IMG/VR virus record: IMGVR_UViG_3300020213_000282
Location: 1 to 21,283 of that record
Origin: a virus
Reading direction: 5' to 3' (one strand)
DNA length: 21,283 nucleotides
This document shows positions 1,519-20,259 of this stretch, piece after piece (within the stretch, counting starts at the first letter, position 1; the number at the start of each line of letters is the position of its first letter). The translations under genes were made by a program, and so were the position numbers. The notes beneath the pieces were generated by a model. The model saw only the letters and a program-made list of their open reading frames with translations. It had not been told where the DNA came from and made no database searches.

Positions 1519-2586
1519 CTAAGATGCGCCACGGAGCTGGCCCTGGAGGCGTGGCTCTACAGCGACAAAGTTACCAGCATAAAGGAGGTAACCCACCTTT
1601 GTAAGCTGATCAACTGGACTCATCATCTTGCGGAACTGGAATCCACGAGTTGACTTCACGTTACCTGGAACTCCAGCAGGAACCGCGTCGGTTGTCTGCT
1701 TAAAGTTTGCGGTCATGATGTCTGCATCCTCGTAGTTGAATCCAACAAAGCCGAAGCCCTTAGAGTTTGCGAAGTAGAACCGTCCTGACGGCACCTGCTC
1801 GTCCTTAGCAACTCCCGTACCACGGAAGGCAAGATATACGAAGCCCTGACCACCTCCCTGTCCTGGAGTGTTCGAAACACCACCCCATGCATTCATCTTT
1901 GGGAAACCGTTGGTCTGGTAGTTCGCACGAACCGATGGAGTCATAAGAGACTCATACGTTGACCAGATTGCCTTCGTTGTGAAAGCGAGGTCTGGACTAT
2001 CAACACCAATGGTTACTGCATCATCTGCTGTTGCAAGCTTCGCAAGTGTAAGTGCACCGGTGCTTGCTAGGTAGTAACCACTCCACGCTGTGTACGTTGA
2101 ACGGCTAAGGTCGCCGTACGTTGCAAACAATGTAGAGTCAGCTGCTGCGTTTGAGAGAGAATCCCACTCGTTACCTGTGCCGTTACCTGTATAAAGGTTC
2201 TGGCCCATAACATTCAAGAGGGACTGAGCCTGTGAATCAAACTCAGTATCAAGAAGCTTTACAATCTGCTCATCTCCCATGTTTGCAGTCGTTTCTGCGA
2301 TTGCTACAACGACTGGCTTGTTGGTTGCCTTCAAGTTGAAGTTGGCCTGCACACGAACATTCTGACGGTCAGTATCAAGACGGTCTGCAATTCCCATGTT
2401 TCCACCGTTTGTGGTGTCTTGGTACTTGATTGCGAACTTGTAACTGGTACCTGAATCCCAGGCCTGGATCTTGTCCTGGCGCTGGAGGAAGGTCATAAGA
2501 CCCGGGGTACCTGTGGTAACCTGGTCATAAACCTTCTTCAGGATTTTCTCGCGGGTGGTCGTTGTGACTGCTGAGTTAAATATCAT
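1519..2586 (-). CDS. major capsid protein (HK97-fold)
   Basis: A 355-aa protein starting at ATG 2586. It forms the icosahedral head shell. The N-terminus (MIFNSAVTTTTREKILKKVY) is short and has no long delta domain, in line with the separate scaffold gene just upstream. The segment around residues 45-105 (SGTSYKFAIKYQDTT, then TDRQNVRVQANFNLKATNKP) looks like the N-arm/E-loop followed by the spine helix region (GDEQIVKLLDTEFDSQAQSLLNVMGQ). The C-terminal part (YLAFRGTGVAKDEQVPSGRFYFAN, then MMSPVDQLTKVGYLLYAGNFVAVEPR) has the P-domain/A-domain pattern of HK97-type capsid proteins. The order portal, scaffold, this gene is the standard head module. The start context has no Shine-Dalgarno motif. 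Confidence 0.88.
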   Translation of the reverse strand: MIFNSAVTTTTREKILKKVYDQVTTGTPGLMTFLQRQDKIQAWDSGTSYKFAIKYQDTTNGGNMGIADRLDTDRQNVRVQANFNLKATNKPVVVAIAETTANMGDEQIVKLLDTEFDSQAQSLLNVMGQNLYTGNGTGNEWDSLSNAAADSTLFATYGDLSRSTYTAWSGYYLASTGALTLAKLATADDAVTIGVDSPDLAFTTKAIWSTYESLMTPSVRANYQTNGFPKMNAWGGVSNTPGQGGGQGFVYLAFRGTGVAKDEQVPSGRFYFANSKGFGFVGFNYEDADIMTANFKQTTDAVPAGVPGNVKSTRGFQFRKMMSPVDQLTKVGYLLYAGNFVAVEPRLQGQLRGAS

Positions 2587-3470: not shown

Positions 3471-3674
3471 CTAACCTTTCTTAAATGCATCTATAATTCC
3501 TTTCAGTGGGTTAATAGAACCGTAATACGGTGCTGCCCCACTCTTTAAGTCCTTCTGACCCTGGCTTATATTGCTCCCTATCTGCCTACCAACCGCTTGC
3601 AATTTGTCCTCTGCTCTTTTCTTTTTTGCAGGAACAAATCCAATAATCTCATTCATCTTTTCAGTTAAGCTCAT
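3471..3674 (-). CDS. small basic protein between portal and scaffold
   Basis: A 67-aa protein (MSLTEKMNEIIGFVPAKKKR...). Its ATG overlaps the portal stop codon by ATGA (3671-3674), which indicates translational coupling to the portal gene. The product is basic and probably helical in its first half, with a Gly/Ser-rich centre and a final IDAFKKG. No transmembrane segment or known motif is visible. From its place in the head module it could be a head-assembly or internal virion protein. The function is unknown. Confidence 0.65.
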   Translation of the reverse strand: MSLTEKMNEIIGFVPAKKKRAEDKLQAVGRQIGSNISQGQKDLKSGAAPYYGSINPLKGIIDAFKKG

Positions 3675-5722
3675 GGTGTTGGTTGGTTATTCTTTGAAGC
3701 AAGCGCTTTGTCCTGTCTTTGGTCTTCGCGCACCGCACCCGCTTCTTCTTTGTTTGCATCAGCCTGCTTCTCAGCCATAGCAACAGCAGGATCTAACTGC
3801 AAGCCAGCACGAGCAGCAAGTTGTATTTGTCCATCAAGTGGAAGATCTTGGTATTTAATAGACGTGCTTACAGGACTTTCTTCCTCCTTAGCTGGTGGTG
3901 CAATCTCTGCAAGCTCTTCTGGAGTAAGACCCACTGCGTGTGCTGGATTCATGTTCCATACAACGCTGTTTTTAGCCATCTCAATAGGGTCGTCGTACTG
4001 AGCAATCTTTAGGTAGTCCACCGGCGAAATAATGCCCTTCATAACATCATTCTGTGCTTGCTCAAACTTGAACTCATCATCCACAGGAAGCGTCTTACCT
4101 GGAATAATGATAACCTCCTGGCCCTCTTCAAAGTCATCCTGGATTATTTCCATGTCTTCGAGGTCCCCTTCTTCTCCCTGCCATGAAACTTTGCGGTACT
4201 CAGTGTAACGGCTCTTTGAAAGCTGCATTGCCCAGCCATAGCATTCGCCATACATGTAATCTACAACCTGTACTAACTCATTAAGGCGAAGATACGACTG
4301 TTGAATAAGAGCAAGACGACCCGCCTTGGTCTCCTGTCCCTGTCTCTCTCCACGAAACGCAGACGAAGCGGCCATGATGTTATCAATCTCCTGACGTGAG
4401 TCAACCATGTCATCAAACACCATCTGAGGCAGCGCTGCACCAGTCTCACGAGTTACTCCGTCCTTTACGTTCTTCCCCCAGACAATACCCTTGGTCTGAA
4501 AACGTATACGCTGAGCATCTGACTTGCCCATAGTTCCTGCATCTACTTTAAGAATACCGTTAGCCATCTCGCAGTTCTCATCAATATCCATCTTGCGCTT
4601 GTCGATACCACGCTGGAGTGTAGAAGCAAGCTCAATCATGTCTGTGCGACCGATAGGGCTGTTTTCATTATTGAACACAGTAGCAAACATGTATGGCTTC
4701 CGTGGAGAATCGAAATAATTGAAGTAGTACGGCGTAAAGACACGCGGTGCTTCAACTGGTGCAGCTTGAACATCGCTCGTAGTTGGCTCAAGTTCTCCTT
4801 CCATACCAACAGAACCGCTCTCACCAGCGTTTGTTGGTGCTATTTCGCCGGCCTGGTTTGCCATATCATACTCGGCTCTGCGCTGCTGCTGCTCAAGTTT
4901 AATTGGTGTCAGGAACTGTCTACGGGCCTCTCCTTGAAGTTCTTTAAGTCCTGCACGCTCTTCTTCAGTAAGAAGAATACCCTTCCAGTCCCAATAGGGA
5001 TTCTGGATAACGCCTAGAACAATATTGTCTAACTTAAAGATGACATGATTCACAATCCATGCCTCTTTGTATGTGACGTCAGGATTCTTTACATACATAT
5101 CCTGCTCCCCCTCTTCGGTCTCAGGAAACCCAAACTTTTTCATAAGCACACCCTTCTTTTCAGGGAAGCGTTCTACAAGCGCGCAGAGATTATCTTCAAT
5201 CTCTTCAATAGCAAACTCTGAGTCCTGCTCTTTGGTAGAATACTTTCCTACACGTATCTTGCACGGATCGATTGCACGATAATCAAAATCATCAATTATA
5301 GGATTCCAAAATGCCTTGATGACAATAAGGCGTGCGAAGTACAAGTTGCGTAGTCCCTTACGCATCGTCTCTTTGAGGTTGCGGTCCACAAGCTTCTTCT
5401 TCATGAACTTCTCAAGCCCCATAGCAAAATCCTGCACTTCGGGACCATTGCGACCTGGAAGGATATTGATGCCAGGAGAATTAGCAATAAGCGAGTTGAT
5501 AACCGCTTCCGTGTTCACAAAAACACGATTGGCCATTACGGTCCACTGCTGCCGGGTATAAGGGATAGCGTCGAGCCAACCACTTTTGTTTGAATAAACT
5601 TTGGTGTTATTCTCGTATGTATTCTTTACTGTTTCCCAAAGCTCATCAGAAGACGACCACCGGTTATCAACCAGCTTTGCTTGTGATTCAGTACTTAGTT
5701 TTGCAATGTCGAGTGATGCCAT
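3671..5722 (-). CDS. portal protein
   Basis: A 683-aa protein starting at ATG 5722. It would form the dodecameric ring at the unique capsid vertex through which DNA enters and leaves, and on which the terminase docks. The length matches the large P22-type portal group rather than the 400-500 aa SPP1 or HK97 types. The N-terminal segment DELWETVKNTYENNTKVY leads into a wing/crown-type region (ANRVFVNTEAVINSLIANSPGINILPGRN). A core with RAIDPCKIRVG follows, then a helical stem region (GIDKRKMDIDENCEMANGILKVDAG) and a Gln/Glu/Ala-rich helical tail near residues 640-683 that could be the barrel. The stop overlaps the next ATG. A terminator-like hairpin ends only about 16 nt upstream of the start. 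No Shine-Dalgarno sequence is present. Confidence 0.85.
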   Translation of the reverse strand: MASLDIAKLSTESQAKLVDNRWSSSDELWETVKNTYENNTKVYSNKSGWLDAIPYTRQQWTVMANRVFVNTEAVINSLIANSPGINILPGRNGPEVQDFAMGLEKFMKKKLVDRNLKETMRKGLRNLYFARLIVIKAFWNPIIDDFDYRAIDPCKIRVGKYSTKEQDSEFAIEEIEDNLCALVERFPEKKGVLMKKFGFPETEEGEQDMYVKNPDVTYKEAWIVNHVIFKLDNIVLGVIQNPYWDWKGILLTEEERAGLKELQGEARRQFLTPIKLEQQQRRAEYDMANQAGEIAPTNAGESGSVGMEGELEPTTSDVQAAPVEAPRVFTPYYFNYFDSPRKPYMFATVFNNENSPIGRTDMIELASTLQRGIDKRKMDIDENCEMANGILKVDAGTMGKSDAQRIRFQTKGIVWGKNVKDGVTRETGAALPQMVFDDMVDSRQEIDNIMAASSAFRGERQGQETKAGRLALIQQSYLRLNELVQVVDYMYGECYGWAMQLSKSRYTEYRKVSWQGEEGDLEDMEIIQDDFEEGQEVIIIPGKTLPVDDEFKFEQAQNDVMKGIISPVDYLKIAQYDDPIEMAKNSVVWNMNPAHAVGLTPEELAEIAPPAKEEESPVSTSIKYQDLPLDGQIQLAARAGLQLDPAVAMAEKQADANKEEAGAVREDQRQDKALASKNNQPTP

Positions 5723-5849: not shown

Positions 5850-6053
5850 CTATGTAGATCTAATCCTATGCACGTGTTCTACCGATACGGTCTGGAGCTG
5901 CTTGTTTGCAAAGTTAAGTGTTACCTTACCCCACATAACATCAAAAGCTCCACTAGTTTCCATAGCTTCAAAAATTTCAAACCGTTCCCGGAAGACTAGA
6001 AACTGCTTTGCTTCCGCGTCTGGTATATAGATTGGTATAAGTTTATCCACCAT
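5850..6053 (-). CDS. small phage protein downstream of the large terminase
   Basis: A 67-aa product from ATG 6053 (MVDKLIPIYIPDAEAKQFLV...). In-frame ATGs at 6080 and 6101 would lengthen it to 76 or 83 aa, but they overlap the terminase end more deeply. The pattern of an N-terminal IYIPDAEA strand, an amphipathic helix (FRERFEIFEAMETSGAFD) and a closing two-strand segment (GKVTLNFANKQLQTVSV) is one I associate with a small uncharacterised protein often found beside phage packaging genes. The function is unknown. It overlaps the large terminase 3' end by 11 nt, so it is translationally linked to it. Confidence 0.65.
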   Translation of the reverse strand: MVDKLIPIYIPDAEAKQFLVFRERFEIFEAMETSGAFDVMWGKVTLNFANKQLQTVSVEHVHRIRST

Positions 6054-7656
6054 AGCGCCCGTCAGAATATCCTTCTGCATTAGCTGACCTGAATAGTTCA
6101 CTCGGGTCGTACACGTTGTCTACATCAATAGCATGTGGCTTTTCTTCGCCACCACCTCCTGTTCCAAAGAAAGCTCCATCACCTCCACCCGTTGTTGCCA
6201 TCCATGCGTAGAGCGATGCAAAAACGTAGTGGTCAACCCCAGTAGTAGATGCCCAGATGTATCTCTCGATGCCTTTGTTATTTGTTACCTTCTCTCTGCA
6301 CAGTGTTTCAAAGTGTCGTATGTAATCACCGAAGTCACGGTCAGCCGGAGCGGCAATGAGCCACTTTGCTTCTAACATCTCTGTAAGCATGAGGTCTATC
6401 ACGCGGTCACGGTGTGCGTACACAATACCGTCACGGTCACCTTCACCCCTCCAGATAATTGTTTGTGGATTGTCAGCATTCTCTTTAAAGAACGACATTT
6501 CCATAAACGGATACGTGTCTACGTAGTGCTTCGCTGCTGTGTTATCCGGCATCGCGTCAATGACACCTGCCTGTGGTTTCCACGTTGCAATAATAGAATC
6601 GAGGTCTTCCCACTTTGTAAAGCGACCTATCTTAATGATGCCTCCGTGTGTGCGCACAACATAGTGTTTCATGTTGCCCACGTCTACACCGAGGAACCTT
6701 GGTCCTTGGTCGACGTCAGAGAACCTTGGTGTCCATATATCGAGGAGTGCAGCCTTTGTAATCTGCAAGTCTCCTGGCGTGTACGGGAGGCCAAGCACAA
6801 AGTTATTAAAGTATCCAGGGTCCCCCTCCGAGTCTTCAATAACTTCTTCAATAGTTATATCCGGGCACATGAGATGGGAAATGCGGTATCCATGAACACG
6901 CGAACCAGGACGTTGCGCTTGATATACACCACGTCTTCTTGTATCATCACTCAGTTTACCTTCGCACGTTCTGCACTTGTAAAACTTACCTTCAATGTTT
7001 ACAGAGTCCGGCCACACGAGGTCTTGCTCTGCTTTACAGTGCTCGCATGTAATAGTCCATAAACGCTGGTCAGACTTCTGCCAAGCAATATCAAGTTCAT
7101 CGCGCTCTGACCCGGGATTAGAGAATAACCAACGACCTCTGTACGGACTCGCTTTAGTACGAGATTTATATGTCTCAATAGCGGGCTGATTAGAACGAGA
7201 CACCTCATCATGCACAAGTACATCTGCCGACGTCGAGATAGGAGCTGTACTTGATATAGTACCCTTGAAGAACACAAATCTATCATTCAGTTCTTTGCGG
7301 TCTACGTTATCTGTTGCCATCCCACGAAACTCTGAAGGATTACTTTGTAGTATCTTGTTGAACTTCGAAGCGACAAACTCATTCACATCAGACTCAGTTG
7401 GCATTGTGTAGATGACGTTAAAGCGCAAATGCTTAACGGCAAACAATGTCTTTAGTGAGAATGTTACAGACTTTCCTACCTGAGCACATGCCATCACAAC
7501 CTGAAGTGGATGGAAGTCAGTAAGTATATCTAAGAGGAACGGTCGATTCTTCCAATCAAAAGGCTCCCCTTTCTCAGACACAATACCCTCCTCAGTCAAC
7601 CATTGAAGGATGGAAAAGTACTGTTTCTCTTTAATTATTTTATGCTGTCTTGCCAT
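6043..7656 (-). CDS. terL: terminase large subunit (GpA-like packaging ATPase/nuclease)
   Basis: A 537-aa motor that pumps DNA into the prohead and cuts the concatemer. The N-terminal ATPase has a Walker A element ACAQVGKS (residues 56-63) and a Walker B VLVHDE (146-151) with the catalytic Glu151. A zinc-ribbon-like set C204-x2-C207 and C228-x2-C231 follows, typical of the lambda GpA branch. The C-terminal RNase H-like nuclease shows its acidic residues in FLGVDVGN (D325), GVIDAMPD (D367) and GVDHYVFA (D475). A Gly-rich loop and an acidic tail end the protein. The start overlaps the end of GroEL by 17 nt, and the two genes are co-transcribed. All motifs appear intact. No Shine-Dalgarno sequence is present. 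Confidence 0.93.
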   Translation of the reverse strand: MARQHKIIKEKQYFSILQWLTEEGIVSEKGEPFDWKNRPFLLDILTDFHPLQVVMACAQVGKSVTFSLKTLFAVKHLRFNVIYTMPTESDVNEFVASKFNKILQSNPSEFRGMATDNVDRKELNDRFVFFKGTISSTAPISTSADVLVHDEVSRSNQPAIETYKSRTKASPYRGRWLFSNPGSERDELDIAWQKSDQRLWTITCEHCKAEQDLVWPDSVNIEGKFYKCRTCEGKLSDDTRRRGVYQAQRPGSRVHGYRISHLMCPDITIEEVIEDSEGDPGYFNNFVLGLPYTPGDLQITKAALLDIWTPRFSDVDQGPRFLGVDVGNMKHYVVRTHGGIIKIGRFTKWEDLDSIIATWKPQAGVIDAMPDNTAAKHYVDTYPFMEMSFFKENADNPQTIIWRGEGDRDGIVYAHRDRVIDLMLTEMLEAKWLIAAPADRDFGDYIRHFETLCREKVTNNKGIERYIWASTTGVDHYVFASLYAWMATTGGGDGAFFGTGGGGEEKPHAIDVDNVYDPSELFRSANAEGYSDGRYGG

Positions 7657-9178
7657 CAGTATCTTTTACCACAGTGATAGCCGTCTCGAAGCTGATAAGG
7701 TGCTTCGTGATAGCAACAGCCGACTCTAGTGCAGTGCGTACAACTTTGTGAGGGTCTACAATACCAGCCTTCATCATGTGTACCGTCTCACCCAACACGA
7801 AGTCAATCCCGTACCCTTTTCCATCTTCAAAAACCGCATTCTTACACTTCTCCATACCAGCGTTCTCACACATTTGATTGAACGGCGCGACCATTGCTCT
7901 ACTGAACATAGAGTCAGAGTGTTCATTTGCTGCTTCCATCAAAGCAATACCTCCACCAGGGAGAATGCCTTCCTGCATCGCAGCCTGTGTTGAAGAGATA
8001 GCGTTGTCGAACTTGTACTTCTTTGCGTTGTACTCTGTGTCAGTGTAGACGCCGACACGTATGACACCAATACCTCCTGTGAGAGCAGCAAGACGGTCCT
8101 TCAACTCACCCTTCTGGAAGTCAGATGTAGTGCTCTCTAGCTTGGTCTGCAACTCTTTAACACGCTCTCCTGGATTACCCTTACCTCCGATAATGGTAGT
8201 CCTGTCACGTGTCACTGTAACCTTCTCCGCCCGACCACAAACATCTTTACGCATATCTTCAAGTCGCATACCCTTCTCCTCTGACACGACAGTCGCTCCA
8301 GTGAGCGCAGCAAGGTCAAACAGGAAGTCTCTGGCAGGTGATGCGTTATATGGATTCATTACGCAAGCAATAGTAGCGATACCCTGCATTGCATTCTTTG
8401 CAAGTGAAGCAAGAGCCATACCTTGAACATCGGTTGCAACGAGCAAGATGTGCGTACCAATACCTATATCAGTCAAGAGTGGAATGATCTGCTCGTTCAG
8501 TGACACCGTACGGTCCACGAGGATAATGTATGGGTCAGTAAGAACAGTCTGCGTGTTCTCGTGGTCGTTGATAAAGTACGGAGAGATAAGACCCTTCTCA
8601 AAGCGTAGCCCTCTTACTGTCTCTAAGTAGTATCCAAGCTTCGCACCCTTCTCTACTGTGATAGCTCCTGTGCTACCAACCGTACGGACTGCTTCAGCTA
8701 CTAGCTTTGCAACATCAGCATCGAGGGAAGACACCTCAGCGATACGCTCGATGTCTTTATCTTCTACCGGCACGGACATAGCATTAAGATATGCAAGAGC
8801 CTCTACTAGTCCTGCATCAAGTCGTTCGCGTACGGAGCGTATTTTATAGCTATCTTGGCCCACCTCTTCAAACGCCTCTGAAGCAAGCGCTTGAGTCAAC
8901 ACGGTCGTCGTCGCAGTACCATCACCGCCCTCTGCTGAACTTCGCATGCCTCCCTTCTTCAATAATTGAAGCCCCATGTTCTCATAAGGATCAACAAACT
9001 CTAGGTTGCGTAGGATGGTGATACCATCATCAGCGGTGACAGGATCAAGTCCAGGCCACTCAATAAGAGCAGTCATGCCAACAGCACCAAGTGTAGGAGC
9101 AACTGCATCAGCTGCACGGTCAACACCTGCTTTCACTCGCTCTCTTGCTTCTCTTCCTTTAAGTATTTCTTTTGCCAT
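7640..9178 (-). CDS. groEL: phage-encoded GroEL-type chaperonin, catalytic Asp398 replaced by Asn
   Basis: A 512-aa group I chaperonin from ATG 9178 (MAKEILKG); a TTG 15 nt further upstream is less likely because MAKE is the family's usual N-terminus. It would form a ring that encloses and folds proteins, here probably capsid or other virion proteins. Nucleotide-site motifs are recognisable: VTADDGITI with D51 (E. coli D52), GGDGTATTT with D86 (E. coli D87), and GILPGGGIAL near 404-413. Gap-free alignment back from GGG places N392 at E. coli D398, the residue that activates water for ATP hydrolysis (codons gac aac, so D391-N392). TLGPKG near the N-terminus is changed to TLGAVG. The apical GLISPYFIN and DVQGMALA segments are kept. 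The GGM tail is absent; the protein ends DTDGKTA. It lies 1 nt past the GroES stop and overlaps terL. Confidence 0.95.
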   Translation of the reverse strand: MAKEILKGREARERVKAGVDRAADAVAPTLGAVGMTALIEWPGLDPVTADDGITILRNLEFVDPYENMGLQLLKKGGMRSSAEGGDGTATTTVLTQALASEAFEEVGQDSYKIRSVRERLDAGLVEALAYLNAMSVPVEDKDIERIAEVSSLDADVAKLVAEAVRTVGSTGAITVEKGAKLGYYLETVRGLRFEKGLISPYFINDHENTQTVLTDPYIILVDRTVSLNEQIIPLLTDIGIGTHILLVATDVQGMALASLAKNAMQGIATIACVMNPYNASPARDFLFDLAALTGATVVSEEKGMRLEDMRKDVCGRAEKVTVTRDRTTIIGGKGNPGERVKELQTKLESTTSDFQKGELKDRLAALTGGIGVIRVGVYTDTEYNAKKYKFDNAISSTQAAMQEGILPGGGIALMEAANEHSDSMFSRAMVAPFNQMCENAGMEKCKNAVFEDGKGYGIDFVLGETVHMMKAGIVDPHKVVRTALESAVAITKHLISFETAITVVKDTDGKTA

Positions 9179-9179
9179 A

Positions 9180-9437
9180 TTAAAGAATAGCAATTATATC
9201 TGACACAGCGACTGTCTTCATTTCTTTCCCTTCAATAGAGACTGTGTGTGTGTCTGGAGAGAACTTTGCAAAGATAACTTCAGCTCCTTCAATGAGACGT
9301 ATGTGTTCTACATCCTCTCCTACCTGGACAATACGACCATTGCTTGTAAAGTCATCAATAGCTTTAACCTCTGCGAACCCACCACTGGTATCTTTTTCAA
9401 CACGCTCAAGTAGCACACGGTCTCCTAATATGTTCAT
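9180..9437 (-). CDS. groES: GroES-type co-chaperonin
   Basis: An 85-aa protein starting at ATG 9437, overlapping the upstream stop by ATGA. It begins NILGDRVLLERVEK, the standard Cpn10 opening, and continues GRIVQVGED, EGAEVIFAKFS and a closing VAVSDIIAIL, all matching the beta-barrel core of GroES. It would cap the adjacent phage GroEL. It is shorter than the usual 95-97 aa, and the mobile-loop region reads TSGGFAEVKAIDDFTSNG. The hydrophobic tripeptide after GG (IVL in E. coli), which docks onto GroEL, is not conserved. Phages with a full GroEL and GroES pair are uncommon; T4 gp31 and similar proteins replace only the lid. Confidence 0.88.
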   Translation of the reverse strand: MNILGDRVLLERVEKDTSGGFAEVKAIDDFTSNGRIVQVGEDVEHIRLIEGAEVIFAKFSPDTHTVSIEGKEMKTVAVSDIIAIL

Positions 9438-16131: not shown

Positions 16132-18057
16132 ATGAACCTTCGACCCGCACAGGAACGCATCCTTAAAGAGAACCCCAGTAAGGCACTCCTGAATTGGGAG
16201 ATGCGATGTATTCATCCTGACACTTTAATTTATGATCCTGTTAAAAAAGAAAGTTATAAAGTAAAAGACATAAAGAATGATTTCCATGTTTACTCTAAAA
16301 ATGAAGATGGCCTTATTGTAATAGCCGAAGCTGAAAGACCAATTCAGTACGGCATGGCACCAATGATTGAGATTTCTTTCTTTAACAAAGAAAGAATAGT
16401 AGTCACACCTCTGCACCGCTTTTTTCTCGGTGCTTCCTGGGTCTACGCGTACCAGCTAATATCCTCGCCCTCCCCTCTTCCGTCCATTTCGGAACACGAC
16501 CCTTCAGTGTTATTCGCAAATGTTCACCATTGTTCTGGAACAATCGTAAATTTTCTACTCTATTGTCATCCTTTATTCCGTTTTTGTGGTCAACTACTTC
16601 AGTGGGTAGTAAATATCTACCAAGGCTTTCTTCCATCACTAATCGGTGCTCTGACACTGTCCTGTTTTTCTTTCTGTAAGGATGTTCTGGGGTATATATT
16701 TCCACATATCCCTTTGAATACCTCCTCCCACCTTTCCAAGACGAATGAGTGCTGCCGTGTTGATAAGAATGACCTGAACGAATTTGAACTCCATTCTTTG
16801 TTAGCACAGCAAGTATTATCCTCTCATGTACACCAAAGATTTTTCTTATCTTATCTTTTGACAAACCTTTATTGTAAAGTTCTAAACACTTTTCAATCAT
16901 ACGCAAAGTATACTACTATTAGGGAAGCTAGGATAGTCCAGTCTCAAAGGTACTACGATTTTCACGTGCCCTTACATAATAATTATCTTTGCTCAGGAGT
17001 AGTAAATCATAATACAGGCAAGTCGCTCCCAGCTGCCGTCTGGGCCGATCACCCGTCACGCGATGGCAACGCGTACATTATTACCCGCAAGGCGAACGTG
17101 ACCGATTGGAAGAAACATAAGACGAAGGCGAAGGTGATCACGAAGGAGCAGTTCCGGAAGGAGGATATCGTTGACCCTACGGCGCTCGTCATAGATGAGG
17201 CGCACTTTTTTGCGTCCCCTTTATTCCTCAAGGGTCGCTCTCAGCTTGCCACCAAGCTGTATACGCTGGTGAAGCGATACCCTGAGTGTCATATCCTTTT
17301 GCTGACGGCTACCCCGGTCAAGAACGACGCATGGTCCCTGCACACCCTATTTTGCTACATGGGTCTGTACTACGACTGGAAGGAGTGGCGTACCATGTTC
17401 TTCGAGCAGCGTCCCATGCCCTACCTACCGCGACCTCGTTGGATGCCTGTTGGTCAGGTTCCCACGGCATGGGTACCCCGAGGGAACTGGCGCGAGCTCT
17501 TGCAGCCGTTCCTTGAGAAGCATAGCGACACGGAGGTGCTAGGCAAGGAGGACAAGGACGATATCATCGTGCAAGTGAAACAGCCTGTATATAAAAAGCC
17601 CGAGGACCAACTTGTTACCTGGACCCATGAGCACAAGCACGAGCAGGTGGGGAAGGCCGAGCGGGTGCTCGCCCTTCCGTACCGCAAGGCTATCGTCGCC
17701 GCCCACTATACCTACCAGATTGACGAGCTCAAGGAGGCGCTGGGGGCCGTCCGGCCCGTCTTTGTGATGGATGGTCGCACCAAGGACCCGGACGCCGTCC
17801 TGAAGGCTGCACAGGAGGCTGAGGAGGGGTATCTTTTGGTTCAGGCTTCTATGGGATACGGTTGGGACGGCTGGATGTTCGAGGCGCTCGTCTTCGCCTC
17901 CATGGCGCACCCCTGTGTCCACCACACGCAGATGAGGGGGCGCCTACGCTCCATAGAGCACCTTGCGCCCGTCGATAACGTCTACCTGATTGGTGGCCGG
18001 TGGGACAAGAAAATATACGATACTGTAAAAGCTGGCCATGACTTCCAAGCTCCCTGA
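16132..18057 (+). CDS. SNF2/DEAH-type helicase interrupted by an intein in the P-loop
   Basis: The full frame is 641 aa; removing the 269-aa intein (residues 26-294) leaves a 372-aa superfamily 2 helicase. Motif I is split: the N-extein ends LLNWEMR and the C-extein resumes [10 protein letters not shown], together giving EMRTGKS, comparable to the EMGLGKT of SNF2 proteins. Motif II is VIDEAHFF (D355-H358), motif [10 protein letters not shown] (T392-T394), and motif VI QMRGRLR (Q600-R606). The helicase is compact, like phage UvsW/SNF2-like remodelling helicases. It would unwind or branch-migrate DNA, fitting the SSB, nuclease and resolvase around it. Without protein splicing the ATP site is destroyed, so activity depends on the intein. 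Its 3' end overlaps the resolvase-like gene by 20 nt. Extein DNA is GC-rich. Confidence 0.88.
16207..17013 (+). mobile_element. intein (269 aa) with an antisense endonuclease gene inside
   Basis: Splicing block A starts at Cys1, [10 protein letters not shown] (16207-16236). Block B is [10 protein letters not shown] with the T-x-x-H (about 16402-16431). Block F/G is [21 protein letters not shown], ending in the terminal His-Asn (17008-17013), with Thr as the +1 residue. No LAGLIDADG or sense-strand HNH lies between blocks B and F. Instead this part is the complement of the leftward HNH gene 16403-16900, while the sense frame has no stop. The element is AT-rich: 27% G+C in 16201-16260 and 35% in 16561-16620, against 60% in 17041-17100 of the extein. 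That indicates recent arrival. The splicing residues look intact, so splicing is expected. Confidence 0.9.
16403..16900 (-). CDS. HNH homing endonuclease encoded antisense within the intein
   Basis: A 165-aa product from ATG 16900; a TTG at 16906 would add two residues. The N-terminal 40 residues form a helix-turn-helix-like segment ([19 protein letters not shown], then [11 protein letters not shown]) suited to DNA binding. The HNH_3-type nuclease follows: [51 protein letters not shown], with the D-H (104-105), the central N and the final N-x-x (N117) of the beta-beta-alpha-metal motif. The tail is basic. Its TGA (16405-16403) falls in the codons for V-T of intein block B, so the last codons overlap the splicing domain. 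TATACT lies 7 nt upstream of the ATG, without a -35. It probably spreads the intein by cutting intein-free helicase genes. Confidence 0.85.
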
Positions 18058-19905: not shown

Positions 19906-20259
19906 ATGAACTTCAAAACAATAACAGGAGGCACCGAAGCAGAAGCACTAGCGAAGTTCCCTTGGTTAAACGACGCTTCCTTTGAAGACGCGATTGTTGA
20001 CATTACTCACTACTATCTTGTTTGGGAGGGCGGCACTTGGGAGGGCGGCACTTGGAAGGATGGCACTTGGGAGGATGGCATTTGGGAGCGTGGCATTTGG
20101 AAGGATGGCATTTGGGAGGATGGCATTTGGAAGCGTGGCATTTGGAAGGATGGCACTTGGGAGGGTGGCCTTTGGGAGGATGGCCTAATGTGGTCAAACA
20201 TTCACCAAGAGTACAAACGTGTCGCTTACGAAGACGGGAAGTTTACTGTAGCGGAATAA
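19906..20259 (+). CDS. pentapeptide Trp-Gly repeat protein (117 aa)
   Basis: From ATG 19906: about 40 residues of ordinary sequence (MNFKTITGGTEAEALAKFPW...) are followed by eleven five-residue repeats (residues 41-95) of the form [EK]-x-G-[TIL]-W, for example EGGTW, KDGTW, EDGIW, ERGIW. A short end follows (SNIHQEYKRVAYEDGKFTVAE). A strict period of five with a Trp in each unit suggests a right-handed beta-helix or solenoid with a tryptophan ladder, related in logic to the pentapeptide-repeat fold but with different core residues. The function is unknown; DNA mimicry is known for classical pentapeptide-repeat proteins but cannot be claimed here. All six frames look open over the repeats because the 15-nt unit is in phase. 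Confidence 0.75.
   Translation: MNFKTITGGTEAEALAKFPWLNDASFEDAIVDITHYYLVWEGGTWEGGTWKDGTWEDGIWERGIWKDGIWEDGIWKRGIWKDGTWEGGLWEDGLMWSNIHQEYKRVAYEDGKFTVAE
20026..20190 (+). repeat. 15-nt tandem repeat, 11 copies
   Basis: The unit is approximately GAGGATGGCATTTGG, beginning at 20026 and repeating every 15 nt. Third-position and first-codon changes are spread unevenly. The first two units are identical, and later ones alternate between GAG and AAG at codon 1 and between GGC, GAT and CGT at codon 2. It probably expands and contracts by slippage or unequal exchange without breaking the frame. Confidence 0.85.

Follow-up and report, generated by a model that had tools for sequence, protein, structure and literature searches.

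D398-dependent ATP hydrolysis is the timer of GroEL, and the D398A substitution is a standard laboratory tool for freezing the chaperonin cycle. The groEL gene of an uncultivated phage specified an asparagine at this position, which raised the question of whether a natural chaperonin had dispensed with the catalytic aspartate and, if so, how its folding chamber would operate. The gene was found in IMG/VR virus record IMGVR_UViG_3300020213_000282, and the whole stretch that we analyzed (21,283 bases, positions 1 to 21,283) is referred to here as the window.

Chaperonin and structural genes of the phage

The groEL gene (7640..9178, minus strand) starts with an ATG at 9178 and encodes a group I chaperonin subunit of 512 amino acids that matched Pfam Cpn60_TCP1. 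Directly upstream is a groES gene (9180..9437, minus strand; 85 amino acids; Pfam Cpn10, 1.5e-8), whose product carries GGF in its mobile-loop region. The groEL end is overlapped by the start of the open reading frame (ORF) for the terminase large subunit, TerL (6043..7656, minus strand; Pfam GpA_ATPase, 3.8e-19). Also on the minus strand are a probable portal gene (3671-5722), which matched a TM7 phage portal, and a probable major capsid protein gene (1519..2586; 355 amino acids), which matched proteins of TM7 phages and of phage BUCT555. The capsid protein was 25% identical to that of TM7 phage MG269973 and 24% identical to that of MW202566, and the matching BUCT555 gene is annotated as a major capsid protein.

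Asparagine occupies the position of the catalytic aspartate

The phage GroEL matched chaperonins in the PDB over its full length (phmmer, best E value of 2.6e-104). In the alignments to three solved chaperonins, the segment GGIGVIRVG...KYKFDNAI...GILPGGG contained no gaps, and this placed N392 (codon AAC, 8003..8005, minus strand) at the position of E. coli D398. An AlphaFold2 model built from 22 aligned sequences had a mean pLDDT of 87, and 504 of its residues were aligned with E. coli GroEL (4ki8) with a Z score of 42.5 and an rmsd of 3.9, which is a match at the level of the fold. The initial annotation had proposed that D398 was replaced by N392 and that the equivalents of D52 and D87 were kept. 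Both proposals were borne out, the former by the gap-free alignments and by fixation of Asn across the clade described below, and the latter by the presence of D51 and D86.

Three trivial explanations were considered and set aside. A register shift that places D391 at position 398 was rejected because the alignments were gap-free and because the residue before the Asn, which corresponds to E397 in E. coli, was D, E, or Q in the clade (FDN, FEN, or FQN) while the Asn was invariant. A sequencing error or an oddity of a single contig was rejected because the Asn was found in independent contigs and was encoded by both AAC and AAT. Deamidation of N392 to Asp was judged to be unlikely because an Asn-Ala pair within a helix deamidates slowly. 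The Asn at position 398 is real, and the case for it is stronger than first reported.

Other positions in the ATP site were partly conserved and partly altered. D495 was kept as D475, as were the GGG loop and the GDGT loop, the latter followed by Ala instead of T90. The altered positions were K51 (D50; codon at 9029..9031, minus strand), which adjoins D51, the D52 equivalent; T90 (A89, within GDGTATTT; codon at 8912..8914, minus strand); N37 (T36); P33 (A32); and A480 (Phe). T90 and the backbone of K51 are K+ ligands in GroEL. On the apical face, most hydrophobic residues were retained (Y203, F204, L237, and L259), but V264 was replaced by Lys or Gln, leaving part of the face that contacts GroES and substrates less hydrophobic. 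At the inter-ring face, R452, S463, and V464 were not retained in the clade, and the segment around E434 was deleted. R452, S463, and V464 are three of the four residues that are altered in single-ring SR1 (PMC3813556). The clade may therefore differ from E. coli GroEL in its ring behavior, as judged from these residues. Since the SR1 residues were likewise absent from several phage chaperonins with D398, N398 and the ring state are not linked.

N398 is fixed in one clade of viral chaperonins

Relatives in IMG/VR were gathered by searches with the GroEL protein, an alignment, and the terminase. Asn was found at position 398 (E. coli numbering, used from here on) in every relative of at least 55% identity that covered the site, in a clade that spans 55 to 100% identity. 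We also scanned IMG/VR for the N398 motif ([DE]-N-[AG] in its sequence context) and, for comparison, for the Asp version. The N398 scan yielded 28 stretches, all within the clade of the window, and the 23 that were readable at positions 51 and 90 all had K51D and T90A. The D398 scan yielded at least 120 stretches; among the matches listed, 119 had Asp and one was unreadable. The sensitivity of the Asp motif was about 76%, as estimated in one Patescibacteria order (37 of 49 genomes matched). Among 18 annotated phage GroELs that were sampled (16 including those of EL and PBS1, plus MG269973 and MW202566), all had Asp and none had Asn.

The dN/dS values of the window gene relative to two relatives were 0.083 and 0.060, and a GroES-like ORF was located directly before groEL in several other clade members; in the remaining members, our simple ORF reader returned no usable upstream ORF or an unrelated frame. 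The low dN/dS values and the adjacent groES suggest that groEL is a working gene. No paper on a D398N GroEL was found in our search, although the viral chaperonin literature may contain an earlier notice. Four phages (L027-L030) with a terminase 49% identical to that of the window and with related capsid and portal genes had no GroEL in the stretch fetched.

N398 also occurs in cellular GroELs

Among 84,980 species genomes, the N398 motif was found in 28 stretches. Twelve of these belonged to a Nealsonbacteria/Parcubacteria lineage, and all 12 had Asp at position 51. Each of the 12 genomes had one GroEL and one GroES, where a sole GroEL means that only one was found, most of the genomes being metagenome-assembled. 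Because the sole GroEL found in this second Patescibacteria lineage has N398 and is accompanied by a GroES, N398 does not preclude chaperonin function. One WWE3 genome had N398 with His at position 51, again in the only GroEL found.

Most of the other cellular N398 sequences were from Desulfobacterota (L250, L254, L257, L264, L265, and L270) and Planctomycetes (L256, L259, L262, L266, and L272) and had Lys, Asn, or Arg at position 51. They were extra copies in genomes that generally held further GroELs, and the best-scoring other copies had Asp at position 398 in most of these genomes. The N398 copies on this background probably represent further independent origins.

Ancestry of the phage GroEL and order of the changes

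The phylogenetic tree was computed without the trait columns 37, 50, 51, 90, 398, 479, and 480. The sister group of the viral clade (support 100/100) consisted of six GroELs from a single Patescibacteria order, and the grouping had support of 100/99. All six had D51, D479, and F480, and all six kept T90 and D398, so that Thr at position 90 in the host lineage differs from the Ala of the phage clade. The D398 motif was found in 37 of the 49 genomes of the order and the N398 motif in none of the 49. One member of the order (L407) has TNDG, with Asn at position 51, which suggests an origin of D51 inside the order.

We rejected the idea that the viral N398 descends from the N398 lineage of Patescibacteria because a D398 lineage is the sister group of the viral clade. 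The Nealsonbacteria/Parcubacteria N398 lies on a separate branch of the tree and is thus convergent with that of the phages. In that lineage, sequences with SDDG and N398 were found beside relatives with CDDG and D398, nested in relatives with TNDG and D398. The branching order is suggestive of D51 having preceded N398 in two separate lineages, although two events do not prove that the residues are coupled. The initial annotation had included neither the clade-wide fixation of the change together with K51D and T90A nor the occurrence of D51 and N398 in Patescibacteria cells.

Probable hosts

TerL relatives with E values below 1e-90 were found in 5 of 379 Patescibacteria genomes, and the best three were in the order that contains the sister GroELs (3 of 49 genomes). 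In the control phylum, Desulfobacterota (247 genomes), the best match was 6e-40. Two of the Patescibacteria matches were on contigs 1.10 and 0.82 Mb long. Among 50,697 phage records, the best match to the capsid protein was from a TM7 (Saccharibacteria) phage (E value of 9e-24), and the portal matched the same phage. Because the GroEL ancestry, the phage structural genes, and the TerL relatives agree, members of the clade probably infect the tiny Patescibacteria, which connects a group of uncultivated phages to probable hosts.

Relationship to known chaperonins

The full-length Cpn60 sequence, the three-domain fold of the model, and the D52 and D87 motifs are those of group I chaperonins (GroEL/Cpn60), and the partner Cpn10 gene is adjacent, with GroES binding as a prediction. 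Asp398 is typical of the group but is not required by fold or descent, and it is replaced by Asn in all clade members. The phage GroEL is a variant group I chaperonin, as its fold and phylogenetic placement hold and the standard catalytic residue is absent.

The closest engineered parallels are E. coli GroEL D398A and SR1-D398A, which likewise have no carboxylate at position 398 and keep the ATP-binding residues; the phage protein also lacks most of the inter-ring residues that are mutated in SR1. In contrast to these mutants, the phage GroEL is natural, has Asn rather than Ala along with K51D and T90A, and has its own GroES. Among phage-encoded proteins, EL gp146 is also group I-like. It retains the catalytic Asp (Asp412) and actively hydrolyzes ATP, and it did not interact functionally with E. 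coli GroES (PMC7185714), whereas the window GroEL is nearer to cellular GroELs and has an adjacent groES gene. A close relationship to single-ring chaperonins of the EL/OBP type was not supported, the identity to EL being 23% over 80% of the query, and in a tree computed without EL itself the clade grouped with Patescibacteria GroELs. The TM7 phages DolZOral124_53_65 and MW202566 have related capsid and portal genes and carry groEL immediately after a small gene, for which the MW202566 annotation is mhsp60. The GroELs of both phages have D398, however, and share no more than 27 to 31% identity with the window GroEL. One TM7 phage GroEL (L336:15183-16625) is 480 amino acids long and has GDST for GDGT and S-Y-G for T-L-G in the ATP site. 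The nearest cellular parallel, the Nealsonbacteria/Parcubacteria GroEL with SDDG and N398, shares D51, N398, and an accompanying GroES with the phage; unlike the phage protein, it is cellular, is the only GroEL found, and keeps T90.

Models for the function of the D51-N398 chaperonin

Density for the attacking water is seen between D52 and D398 of E. coli GroEL (PMC10723157). D398A retains about 2% of the ATPase activity, has normal ATP affinity, and forms stable GroES complexes or footballs, and HSP60(D398A)/HSP10 refolds rhodanese like the wild type (PMC3813556, PMC5855711). Because Asn at position 398 provides no carboxylate, the simplest reading is slower hydrolysis and a longer-lived chamber. 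We propose that a groEL gene that already specified Asp at position 51 was captured from one Patescibacteria order and that D398N and T90A were fixed after capture. ATP binding would persist via D52, D87, D495, and the GDGT and GGG loops, and the chamber would be closed with the phage GroES. With no carboxylate for the attacking water, hydrolysis would be slower and the chamber would stay shut longer per ATP, and the altered inter-ring face may allow rings to work singly. The GroEL-GroES pair would fold virion proteins in Patescibacteria hosts, and the capsid protein is a possible client. We favor this model, in which an ATP-binding, slowly hydrolyzing chamber with a long dwell operates on a permissive D51 background, and give it a roughly even chance. 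Two observations count against it: D51-N398 is apparently the sole GroEL in 12 genomes, so a protein with both residues may turn over fast enough to be useful, and the change at V264 makes part of the apical face less hydrophobic. The initial annotation had drawn its functional inference from D398A, which is fair in light of the D398A papers, but those mutants had a K51/T90 site and an Asn in a D51 site may behave differently.

The main rival is that catalysis was relocated, with Asp 51 supplying or positioning the carboxylate of D398 or altering the K+ site, so that turnover is normal or mildly reduced. The precedence of D51 over N398 in both the host order of the phage clade and Nealsonbacteria/Parcubacteria (TNDG to CDDG to SDDG with N398) fits this explanation, as do the 12 genomes, each with a GroES, in which the single GroEL detected combines D51 with N398. 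The N398 copies with K51 also count in its favor: they come from Desulfobacterota and Planctomycetes genomes with additional GroELs that have D398. However, the WWE3 GroEL with H51 indicates that D51 is not strictly required, D51 is stable together with D398 across many genomes, and the spot of the attacking water is already occupied by D52. We regard relocation as possible but somewhat doubtful. A broader proposal, which accommodates both a relocated carboxylate and a long-dwell, possibly single-ring chamber, is that natural N398 chaperonins have evolved two or more times from D51 ancestors and that the two residues together make an alternative ATPase design; we hold it tentatively, at a little under an even chance.

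Had hydrolysis been lost completely, the protein would do no more than bind virion proteins, or would join host rings, and the loss of D398, T90A in the ATP site, the altered inter-ring face, and the altered part of the apical face could be read in this way. Strong purifying selection, the conserved ATP-binding loops, the adjacent groES, and the existence of sole-copy N398 GroELs in cells argue otherwise, and mixed rings are unlikely at an identity of about 35 to 39% to host GroEL. Such a holder is less likely than the slow-cycling chamber, and we consider it improbable. The initial annotation had offered a slow-cycling chamber, a non-cycling chamber, and a holder in capsid assembly; slow cycling is plausible, the 12 sole-copy genomes argue against non-cycling as something that N398 generally brings about, and the holder is possible but not favored given the retained GroES and ATP-binding residues. 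Most improbable, in our estimation, is that a single founder lost D398 by accident and that the loss was tolerated as host GroEL does the work. A single origin is enough for the viral cases, which form one clade, but the Asn is invariant across 55 to 100% identity although its neighbors vary, dN/dS is 0.06 to 0.08, and the one-base reversion from AAC to GAC (Asp) was never seen within the clade.

A change akin to D398A has thus apparently occurred in nature in a clade of phages and independently in Patescibacteria cells in which only that GroEL was found, with a possibly permissive change (D51) preceding the loss of the catalytic residue. How much hydrolysis a chaperonin needs becomes directly testable, and natural proteins become available for studies of the closed state.

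Other features of the window

An ORF at 19906-20259 (plus strand) consists of five-residue repeats of the type W-[EK]-[DGR]-G-[TIL] and had no Pfam match. A helicase-like ORF (16132-18057, plus strand) contains a stretch with weak, below-cutoff similarity to an intein splice block (PF14890). Antisense to it, within an insert-like stretch, is an ORF for an HNH endonuclease (16403-16906, minus strand; PF13392, E value of 2.1e-10); if this is an antisense homing endonuclease inside an intein, the arrangement is unusual.
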